From Akkermansiaceae bacterium (GTDB lineage Bacteria; Verrucomicrobiota; Verrucomicrobiia; Verrucomicrobiales; Akkermansiaceae): a DNA stretch of 64,000 nucleotides. Below the pieces are notes generated by a model. The model saw nothing but the letters and a program-made list of their open reading frames with translations. It ran no database searches and had not been told where the DNA came from. The stretch is from contig JANRFH010000033.1 of the NCBI GenBank assembly GCA_030725745.1, positions 1 to 64,000 of the forward strand, given 5' to 3'. Position numbers and translations under genes: made by a program. Shown here in pieces: positions 895 through 31,768 of the stretch. Numbering within the stretch: the first letter of the stretch is position 1; each line of letters starts with the position of its first letter.

Positions 895-1404
895 TTAGAT
901 AGGTTTCTTCTTTTTGTCGTCCTTAGGCATCGATTTCTCGATTTCCGTGATCACATCGATGATACCTGCGGCGGCTCGTGCGCATTCACGACCCCGGTTT
1001 TGTGAGGCGGCGATGCAGCGCGTGTAGGCCTGTTTTTCATCGTCTACGAGGAGCACACCGTGGATGACCGGTATCTTGTGCTCAACGGCTAGATTCTGGA
1101 GGGCGTTCGTGACGGATGTAGCAACGATGTCCGCATGGCCAGTATCGCCTTTGATCAATAGGCCGAGAGCGATGATGCAGCGGACTTCCCCACGAGCCAA
1201 GATGGTGGCAGCAGCAACGGGGATTTCAAATGCGCCGGGCACGCGGATGAGGTCGATGCGAGCCATGGGGATGATCTCGCCGAGTTCTTCGATGGCGTTA
1301 TCGACGAGGGCGTCGGTGAATTTCTCGTTGTATTTGGCCGCCACGATGCAGACCCGGACTTTGTGGCCGATGATCCGTGGTTTTGGCTGCAGGGCGGTGG
1401 ACAT
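895..1404 (-). CDS. ribH: 6,7-dimethyl-8-ribityllumazine synthase
   Basis: Condenses 5-amino-6-ribitylamino-uracil with 3,4-dihydroxy-2-butanone 4-phosphate in the penultimate step of riboflavin synthesis; family members form pentamers or 60-mers in the cytosol. The 169-aa length fits. Family signatures are visible: ARYNEKFT-like AAKYNEKF near residue 23, PGAFEIP near 55, and the ligand segment KGDTGHADIV near 85-94 that holds the catalytic His. That segment is unusual: most family members have T-P/T/S-H-F/Y, here it is T-G-H-A. HGVLLVDDEKQA corresponds to the usual GVLTTDTxEQA. It is the first gene of a ribH-nusB pair. Its upstream region is interrupted by a 190-bp inverted-repeat element ending 56 nt before the start codon. 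Confidence 0.93.
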   Translation of the reverse strand: MSTALQPKPRIIGHKVRVCIVAAKYNEKFTDALVDNAIEELGEIIPMARIDLIRVPGAFEIPVAAATILARGEVRCIIALGLLIKGDTGHADIVATSVTNALQNLAVEHKIPVIHGVLLVDDEKQAYTRCIAASQNRGRECARAAAGIIDVITEIEKSMPKDDKKKKPI

Positions 1405-1447
1405 GCTCTGGCTATGGAGGTATGGGGTAAAAATGTCAACCGGTGCC

Positions 1448-1661
1448 GGAGAAATTTGCAGGGCACCTACATTTGAAAATGTTAACCGCAGATGGACGCA
1501 GATTCACGCAGATGGAAGAGGAAGGCCTAAAAAACCACCGCAGAAAAGTGAGTTTGGCAGCTAAGGAAGCTCATTCTTTTTTATCTGCGTCCATCTGCGG
1601 TTGGATTTCTTCCATTTCACATCATCGCTATTCCAAATGTAGGTGCCCTGGAGAAATTTGC
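1448..1661. repeat. 12-bp direct repeats flanking the 1460-1649 element (putative target duplication)
   Basis: GGAGAAATTTGC is present at 1448-1459 and again at 1650-1661, directly abutting the two ends of the inverted-repeat element. A preceding GGTGCC is also found on both sides (1442-1447 and 1642-1647), but on the right it is part of the element terminus. A duplication created on insertion is the simplest reading. Twelve base pairs is long for a typical MITE target duplication. Confidence 0.7.
1460..1649. mobile_element. 190-bp MITE-like element with perfect 16-bp terminal inverted repeats
   Basis: The ends are AGGGCACCTACATTTG (1460-1475) and its exact reverse complement (1634-1649). 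A second, internal perfect inverted repeat of 20 bp (AACCGCAGATGGACGCAGAT at 1484-1503 and its complement at 1583-1602) makes the element able to fold into a long hairpin. The left arm continues as three tandem 10-mers, CGCAGATGGA, CGCAGATTCA, CGCAGATGGA (1487-1516). No convincing gene lies inside; small open frames across it are by-products of the repeat. It sits in the intergenic space between ribH and the 1784 gene and may affect ribH transcription. The internal repeats resemble those around the GxxExxY gene at 31.2-31.7 kb. Confidence 0.75.
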
Positions 1662-1783
1662 GTTATAGGTGCTTGAGAGGATAGGTTTGGGGGTTTGGGC
1701 TTTACGGGGTGGCAGGTGGGGCTAAACAGGTGCATCCGTTGCCCGAGGGCGGCGTAATTTTCCAACACCACACTACAAAAAAC

Positions 1784-2212
1784 ATGGATATCCAGATTGC
1801 AACGCTTTGCGACTTCGCCGCCGACTACAATGGGAAACTCGTCATTTCCGGCACTTTTGACTCACTCGCTGCTAGGGCGCTGCCGGTGGTTCACCCGAGC
1901 TGTGCGCTTGCCATGCGCTTCTGTTTCACCACAGAGGACATCGGGAAACACAAGCTCTCGATCAACATTATCAACGAAGACGGTGAATCGCTCGACCCGA
2001 AAAATATGCCGATTGAGCCGGAATTCGAAGTCAAGCTGCCACCAAACGCGCCTTATCTGACTCGGAACATCGTGATGAATCTCCAAGGTCTTCGTTTTCC
2101 TGAAGATGGTATCTACTCGATCGACATCGGCTGCGATGGCGAGATCATGATGCGCCTTCCGCTGCGTGTTGTGAAAGTGAACCCGGAAGCCGGTGGGCAG
2201 CAGATGGCCTGA
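1784..2212 (+). CDS. Conserved small protein, DUF6941-like
   Basis: 142 aa starting at MDIQIATLCDFAADYNGKL. The ATG at 1784 is chosen over an upstream in-frame start because similarity to the family I recall (DUF6941-type proteins, starting MKxxIATLCDxA) begins here. The protein has no signal peptide or membrane segment. It reads as a beta-rich domain, with alternating hydrophobic strands such as KLVISGTFDSL, CALAMRFCF and YSIDIGCDGEIMMRLPLRVV. Function is unknown. It stands alone between the inverted-repeat element and a strong terminator. The family name is from memory and less certain than the gene call. Confidence 0.75.
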   Translation: MDIQIATLCDFAADYNGKLVISGTFDSLAARALPVVHPSCALAMRFCFTTEDIGKHKLSINIINEDGESLDPKNMPIEPEFEVKLPPNAPYLTRNIVMNLQGLRFPEDGIYSIDIGCDGEIMMRLPLRVVKVNPEAGGQQMA

Positions 2213-19491: not shown

Positions 19492-19902
19492 ATGGAATTC
19501 GTCCTTAACGAACGGCTCGCCAAAGGTGGGTTCGAGGTCACACGGAAATATGGCTGCCGCATCCTTTTGAAAAACGAGGCGAATTTTGCGTGGTTCATTC
19601 TCGTGCCGGTTGTCGCGGAGGGAACCGAAGATCTCCATCAGCTGGACGAGGAAACTTTCGCCAATGTGATGGCGGGAGTAAGGGAGGTTTCGCGTTTTGT
19701 GGAAAGCCATTTCAAGCCGGAGAAACTCAATGTCGGCTGCATCGGCAACATGGTGAGGCAGATGCACATCCACGTGGTCGGACGTTTCACCAATGACCCT
19801 GCATGGCCGGGTGTAGTCTGGGCTTGTGATGAAAAACGAAAATACGGGGAAGGGGAGGCTAAGGCTATCGTCTTGGCGGCGCAGGATTTTCTGAGTGGTT
19901 GA
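19492..19902 (+). CDS. HIT-domain protein
   Basis: 136 aa. The histidine triad is QMHIHVVGR (H-x-H-x-V-G), preceded by the family block LNVGCIGNMVRQ. HIT proteins hydrolyse or transfer nucleotide phosphoryl groups; the substrate is not predictable. The start is only 2 nt after pqiC, so it is probably the last gene of that operon although a functional link is not apparent. A hairpin with T runs follows. Confidence 0.9.
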   Translation: MEFVLNERLAKGGFEVTRKYGCRILLKNEANFAWFILVPVVAEGTEDLHQLDEETFANVMAGVREVSRFVESHFKPEKLNVGCIGNMVRQMHIHVVGRFTNDPAWPGVVWACDEKRKYGEGEAKAIVLAAQDFLSG

Positions 19903-19913
19903 ACGCAAAAAAG

Positions 19914-19961
19914 AAAAGCCGGAAAGGTTTCCCTGCCCGGCTTTTGAAAATGATCGGTGAT
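19914..19961. terminator. Bidirectional terminator, copy 1 of a duplicated 48-bp unit
   Basis: AAAAGCCGG (19914-19922) pairs with CCGGCTTTT (19937-19945), with an inner AGG/CCT pairing. It ends the HIT gene on the plus strand and the 19967 gene on the minus strand. The whole 48-bp stretch to 19961 recurs at 20806-20853 with 3 mismatches. Confidence 0.85.
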
Positions 19962-20740: not shown

Positions 20741-20805
20741 GGTTTTCAGAAACTGATATTTGGATACGTGTGCGTCCAGCTTTAACACGTGTGATAGTAA
20801 CACAA

Positions 20806-20853
20806 AAAAGCCGGACAGGTTTCCCTGCCCGGCTTTTGGAAATGATCGGCGAT
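20806..20853 (-). terminator. groEL terminator, copy 2 of the duplicated 48-bp unit
   Basis: AAAAGCCGG (20806-20814) pairs with CCGGCTTTT (20829-20837), plus inner CAGG/CCTG. On the minus strand the stem is followed by six T. It lies 20 nt after the groEL stop. Confidence 0.87.
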
Positions 20854-31166: not shown

Positions 31167-31213
31167 AATTTTAGAGCTGGTTAGCGACTGAGCTTAAGTG
31201 GGAAGAATTCTGA

Positions 31214-31745
31214 CCACGGATGGAACGGATTTACACGGATAAGAAATGATTTCCGATTATCGGATGACTCGTTTCCATTTTAGGTCGGCGAATTTGAAAT
31301 TGATGAGGATAGCTAGGCGGAATCCAGTGATTGCAAGATAGCCCATCATTTGGGCGTGATGGGTCTCGGTGAATGACGAGGCGACTTTGGGGTCAACGAT
31401 TACTGAATCATTTACGAGAAGATCTGGGATGAGGGTATCGACTAAATGTCCTTGGTATCTTACGTCAAAACGGCGTTGCTGTTCGACTTGGTGGCCGCGC
31501 TTTTTTAGCTCGATTACTAGAGCATTTTCGTAGGCTTTCTCGCTGAGGCCTGGCTTCAGTGTGTTCAGAACCTGCATTGCGGCTCCGATAATTGATTCGG
31601 AAAGCTCGCGGTGGAGGAGTTGGGTGTCTTGCATGGATACTATTTTAACCACGGATGAAACGGATTTTCACGGATATGACTGGAGTTCTGGAAATAGTCT
31701 TTTTAGCTTTTAATTCTTATCCGTGTAGATCCGTTCCATCCGTGG
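31214..31745. mobile_element. Repeat-bracketed unit carrying a GxxExxY gene
   Basis: A 32-bp repeat at 31214-31245 (copy A, starting CCACGGATGGAACGGAT) and its reverse complement at 31714-31745 (copy C) differ at one position. A third, direct copy B at 31649-31675 (2 mismatches to A over 27 bp) sits directly in front of the gene. Each copy is three ACGGAT units spaced 9-10 bp. Copies B and C alone form a hairpin unit of about 100 bp similar in layout to the inner repeats of the 1460-1649 element. The unit occupies the gap between recN and fmt. Mobility is inferred from structure; no transposase is present. Confidence 0.6.
31257..31634 (-). CDS. GxxExxY protein (PD-(D/E)XK-like)
   Basis: 125 aa from MQDTQLLHRELSESIIGAAMQVLN; a GTG 18 nt upstream lies inside the adjacent repeat and is less likely. 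The name-giving motif is GLSEKAYENAL (G-x-x-E-x-x-Y). The nuclease-like core follows: VDTLIPDLLVND, then VIVDPKV and HHAQMMGYLAITG, ending in LINFKFADLKWKRVI. In most members I recall, the E-x-K of the core is ELK; here the first residue is Asp (DPK), so catalysis is uncertain. The function of the family is unknown. The gene is enclosed by repeat copies A and C, with copy B in its 5' leader. Confidence 0.85.
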   Translation of the reverse strand: MQDTQLLHRELSESIIGAAMQVLNTLKPGLSEKAYENALVIELKKRGHQVEQQRRFDVRYQGHLVDTLIPDLLVNDSVIVDPKVASSFTETHHAQMMGYLAITGFRLAILINFKFADLKWKRVIR

Positions 31746-31768
31746 TTTAGGACGAATTCTACAGTATG

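Follow-up and report, generated by a model that had tools for sequence, protein, structure and literature searches.

Insertion sequences of the ISAs1 family are described, in the part of the source accessible to us (PMC11946415), as having ends of 14 to 22 bp that start with CAGGG and as producing a 10-bp target duplication. Among gene-less relatives of insertion sequences, MITEPye1 of Paracoccus yeei, which is of the IS1182 type, provides a close comparison (PMC11578231, excerpts). The element reported here was found in a window of 64,000 nucleotides, which is the whole stretch of Akkermansiaceae DNA that was analyzed. Like MITEPye1, it is short, gene-less, and intergenic, has insertion sequence-like ends and target duplications, and would form a long hairpin; unlike the excerpted description of MITEPye1, it has ISAs1 ends and GxxExxY-type arrays at a fixed inner place. 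With the ISAs1 family (NF033564; PF13808 and PF01609), it has in common ends of 17 bp that start with CAGGG and a duplication of 10 bp (10/10 positions identical), whereas it lacks a transposase gene and measures 192 bp against about 1.3 kb. The parts of the literature accessible on ISAs1, direct repeats, and MITEs yielded no ISAs1 MITE, and searches covering few subscription journals returned nothing that joins ISAs1 with terminal inverted repeats and target site duplications and nothing on Luteolibacter insertion sequences with inverted repeats.

Structure of the element and its copies

The element lies at positions 1459 to 1650 of the window, between ribH and a divergent DUF6941 gene. Its borders were set by comparing copies, with the ends taken as CAGGG...CCCTG. 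The features of the locus are as follows.

895-1404, minus strand: ribH, lumazine synthase, neighboring gene (PF00885, TIGR00114)
1434-1439, minus strand: TTGACA block upstream of ribH, conserved among relatives and untouched by the insertion
1449-1458, no strand: left copy of the 10-bp target duplication, GAGAAATTTG (10/10 match)
1459-1650, no strand: gene-less ISAs1-type MITE, 192 bp (17-bp terminal inverted repeats, 10-bp target duplication, 95% identical genomic copy, nine empty sites)
1459-1475, plus strand: left terminal inverted repeat, CAGGGCACCTACATTTG (one difference from the insertion sequence ends at L100 in genome G016)
1484-1513, plus strand: left array of three words, AACC + GCAGAT x3, period 10, GxxExxY type (like the arrays flanking GxxExxY genes)
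1583-1602, minus strand: right array, AACC + GCAGAT x2, inverted match to the left array
1634-1650, minus strand: right terminal inverted repeat, inverted match to the left end
1651-1660, no strand: right copy of the 10-bp target duplication (10/10 match)
1709-2212, plus strand: DUF6941 gene, divergent neighbor (PF22091)

The 17-bp terminal inverted repeats are perfect. With up to three mismatches allowed, the 17-mer end has two matches in the window against 0.09 expected; the inner 20-mer has two against 0.00 expected, and a flank match of at least 9/10 has a random frequency of 8e-5. A sequence-only reading of the locus had proposed a 190-bp element with perfect 16-bp ends and a 12-bp flanking duplication. 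Perfect ends and a direct repeat are indeed present, but the element measures 192 bp and its ends 17 bp, and the duplication is 10 bp long, the length at which the family copies align (one aligns at 9). The repeat appears to span 12 bp owing to a coincidence, in that the additional base on either side is identical to the last or first base of the element itself; the 12-bp duplication was rejected in favor of the length common to the copies. The accompanying remark that such a duplication is unusual for known MITE families fails with it, since 10 bp is the length given for ISAs1 in the accessible part of PMC11946415. The second perfect 20-bp inverted repeat inside the element was found where the same reading had placed it, and the proposal of a gene-less, nonautonomous insertion with a target duplication is supported: no gene of its own was found in 1459 to 1650, and the overlapping open reading frames there cross the ends and are unsupported.

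The assembly that contains the window (57 contigs, 3.42 Mb, 95% complete) holds full copies on contigs C33 and C38. The second of these came from a search of the own genome, where the sequence-only reading had suggested looking for further copies of the ends; it lies at C38:15348-15541 in the opposite orientation, is 95% identical, and is flanked by TCCTCTTTTA and TCCTCTTTAA, a duplication matching at 9/10 positions. Weaker relatives in which one or both ends have decayed are located on contigs C53, C43, C57, C44, and C9. Beyond this assembly, CAGGGCAYCTRCATTWG was present with at most one mismatch in 19 of 73 genomes of the genus, and a reversed-pattern control gave three matches in total over the same 73 genomes. 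Eleven elements could be paired on both ends, and eight of them showed a duplication, which was 10 bp long in seven (four perfect, three at 9/10) and matched at 9/9 in one; the three without a duplication were two deleted insertion sequence copies and a 70-bp element. A wider scan covered 60 loci; it used the duplication as an aid in selecting the partner end, tolerated as many as six mismatches in that end, and added six duplications (at least 9/10, or 9/9) among 50 loci, a number that leaves out the G016 element and nine elements already counted. An exact-end scan of public genomes returned 40 stretches, 16 of them verrucomicrobial by title; the 24 scattered non-verrucomicrobial stretches are not above chance (about 60 expected in 257 billion bases by our own estimate).

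Relation to ISAs1 insertion sequences

A likely autonomous partner was found in genome G016. There, two exact 17-bp ends, which differ from those of the window element by one base, bound a 1265-bp element with one long open reading frame that encodes an ISAs1-family transposase (NCBIfam NF033564, E 3.2e-114; Pfam PF13808 and PF01609). This copy stops at a contig edge, where its duplication is unreadable. Internally deleted versions with transposase remnants occur in G010 (671 bp) and G030 (411 bp), and G010 also holds the 70-bp version. In G035, a full-length ISAs1 transposase (94% identical) lies behind a left end with one mismatch, and no right end was found there; the same genome carries array-bearing MITEs with duplications. 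Genomes with the ends (19) and genomes with the transposase (17) overlap in 9 of the 73 (Fisher p 0.0065, with the ends of insertion sequence copies counted as end matches). No ISAs1 transposase match was found in the window's own assembly, although an assembly in 57 contigs can lack repeated elements. An autonomous partner in the same genome would be desirable but does not define such a MITE, as a partner that has since disappeared would suffice for past movement. Outside its 17-bp ends, the MITE is not significantly similar to the G016 insertion sequence (best p about 0.06), and the two interiors are not detectably related. By eye, the subterminal part of the MITE looked likely to derive from that insertion sequence, but the idea found no support in shuffles and was dropped; in the shuffle test, only the 70-bp G010 element matched.

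The identity of the element as an ISAs1-type MITE is well supported, because its ends flank an ISAs1 transposase insertion sequence in G016 and because CAGGG ends with 10-bp duplications are described for ISAs1. We infer mobilization in trans by an ISAs1 transposase, and we consider it very probable that 1459 to 1650 as a whole is a MITE that kept the 17-bp ISAs1 ends and was moved by a transposase from another copy. The transposase gene would have been lost from the element or would never have been present in it. An ISAs1 transposase from another copy would bind both CAGGGCACCTACATTTG ends and move the segment, insertion would take place at a 10-bp staggered cut, and repair would yield the 10-bp duplication. 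The inner inverted pair of GxxExxY-type arrays belongs to the MITE family, in which it keeps a fixed register. These arrays are probably dispensable for movement, because an array-free member has a perfect duplication.

Such a MITE is ordinary mobile DNA, documented here as an ISAs1-type case for which ends, target duplications, and empty sites were recorded in one bacterial genus together with a likely autonomous partner. Its interior matters more, as it leads to a gene family without an assigned role that lies between inverted word arrays far above chance. If the arrays are recognition sites of GxxExxY proteins, a common "unknown nuclease" would become a testable mobile or repeat-processing system.

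Inner arrays and GxxExxY genes

REP/REPIN-RAYT systems consist of a short inverted pair that flanks a dedicated nuclease-like gene, and gene-less copies of the pair occur as well. The GxxExxY arrays have in common with them the inverted pair around a nuclease-like gene and the gene-less copies, but the GxxExxY protein is of the PD-(D/E)XK type and not a RAYT, and the arrays are built of short words at a period of 8 to 10 bp, with a word that differs between the cassettes of one genome. Each of the seven GxxExxY (PF13366) genes in the window's own genome is accompanied by inverted word arrays, and the words are GCAGAT, GCGAAT, CACGGAT (two genes), CACGGAG/CACAGAG, CACGAAG, and GCCAAG. Arrays were scored by the best ungapped match between two 260-bp flanks, and a score of at least 14 was obtained around 29 of 32 genes tested, compared to 10 of 192 mismatched flank pairs and none of 62 pairs shifted within the same locus. 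The 32 genes comprised the 7 own genes and 25 from the phylum, with 4 loci that were cut short left out; the phylum loci were the best matches from 59 genomes (26 with a match) and not a random sample. Word similarity tracked protein similarity (r 0.42; 0/5000 shuffles), and this correlation dropped to r 0.23 (21/3000) and 0.17 (136/3000) after thinning of close relatives, so that part of the word-protein similarity reflects shared descent. Word and protein may coevolve, as would be expected of a nuclease and its own recognition word. The period of the arrays varies by word (loci L242 to L270), being about 8 for AGGAAA or CGAAG, 9 for several words, and 10 for GCAGAT, GCGAAT, and GTTAAT.

The window contains one such cassette, well apart from the MITE.

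31213-31746, minus strand: separate GxxExxY cassette with CACGGAT-word arrays, gene at 31257-31652 (PF13366/TIGR04256)

It sits between fmt-like and recN-like genes, which were named from their translations, and it has one array outside, with a whole array hairpin at its opposite side. The fmt-recN site was compared in 12 relatives: G022 has a hairpin of the same word there but no gene, and short gaps of 34 to 50 bp occur in G033, G110, G059, and G027; no clean duplication was seen in these relatives. A further cassette with CACGGAT-type arrays, on contig C53 of the own genome (L003, 1503-2230), is enclosed by degraded CAGGG ends and GCAGAT arrays and resembles a gene-carrying version of the window MITE. 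The accessible literature on GxxExxY contained nothing on repeats, and no literature naming PDDEXK_3 and nothing relevant on the array word strings (one unrelated mention) was found, all within searches that covered few subscription journals. GxxExxY units resemble a mobile element of a kind not yet described. We propose tentatively, giving the idea slightly less than an even chance, that GxxExxY genes (PF13366/TIGR04256), which encode a small PD-(D/E)XK-type protein, form the center of such a unit, which lies between two inverted arrays of a lineage-specific word and scatters gene-less hairpins; the interior of the window element would then be one such derivative, and two unrelated mobile systems would share one 192-bp vehicle.

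No GxxExxY gene was found in 1459 to 1650, which holds the gene-less form of the arrays and not a GxxExxY cassette. Of the 14 members that a duplication supports (8 paired elements and 6 from the wider scan), 12, in several species, have an array that starts 25 to 28 or 47 to 49 bases from an end. In G103, the array of a 324-bp member is at 77, and none was found by the pattern used in a 139-bp member with a 10/10 duplication; the 70-bp G010 member likewise gave no array by this pattern. These observations bear on the closest alternative, in which a gene-less GxxExxY-type array unit was the mobile part and entered an ISAs1 MITE that was older and shorter, so that one element is nested in another. 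This history, which is compatible with the explanation preferred above, is a possible one that we would back a little less readily than not. It draws on the two array-free members, on array pairs without a gene and without CAGGG ends, which are common in the genus, on the arrays that flank GxxExxY genes, and on the C53 cassette between degraded CAGGG ends; it is opposed by the constant array position across species and by the lack of a clear duplication (by eye) around the arrays inside the MITE. The constant position implies that any nesting is old and that the unit now moves as one. One array-only copy (L054) has an 11-bp direct repeat near its array and outer ends that resemble degraded CAGGG ends, while no duplication was seen by eye at the other array-only copies. 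A further interior type, the module AACCGCAAYGGGAGCGCAGCGGACAT...GAACTGGA, was observed inside CAGGG elements of two species, at L010/L239 (contig C44 of the own genome) and at L104 and L108 (G033).

Empty sites at the ribH-DUF6941 locus

Comparison of the region upstream of ribH in relatives, which had been suggested as a way to prove insertion, revealed empty sites: the insert is missing in all nine congeners in which ribH and the DUF6941 gene are adjacent. Six of these were read letter by letter, and in them a short spacer lacking the element lies between the two genes (G101, G033, G004, G022, G045, and G008); in G005, G059, and G110, the gene distances, taken from coordinates only, fit a missing insert. 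The insertion point is 20 bp upstream of the conserved TTGACA block of ribH, which on the coding strand reads TTGACA in 4/6 relatives and TTGACT in 2/6. The block conserved beside the DUF6941 gene, TTTGGGCTTTACG or a close variant, likewise lies outside the insertion, and the true start of this gene may be the ATG near 1784. No full promoter was found in a consensus promoter scan, and our statements on promoters are drawn from conservation only. The earlier suggestion that the element could disturb the ribH promoter was rejected, since the conserved blocks beside both genes stay intact outside the element; the landing between the two divergent genes would have spared them.

The empty sites also weigh on the idea that the element is a functional hairpin (a terminator, an RNA regulator, or a nuclease barrier) kept by selection between ribH and the DUF6941 gene, which we regard as very unlikely. 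The predicted fold is strong (-83.6 kcal/mol, z -8.7), and the region from 1300 to 1850 gave three weak terminator-like matches where 0.6 would be expected; one of the three falls within the element. However, the hairpin is missing in all nine congeners with the same neighbors, a target duplication is present, and the fold follows from two inverted repeats that such elements have anyway. Least probable of all is membership in a different DDE family that makes long duplications, such as the IS4 groups. Elements of these groups likewise produce duplications of about 10 bp, but the same ends bound an ISAs1 transposase gene in G016 and internally deleted derivatives of such a gene in G010 and G030.

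Elsewhere in the window, a 62-nt direct repeat (85%) with an inverted core, AAAAGCCGG...CCGGCTTTT, was observed at 19900-19961 and 20792-20853; its two copies are perhaps two terminators.
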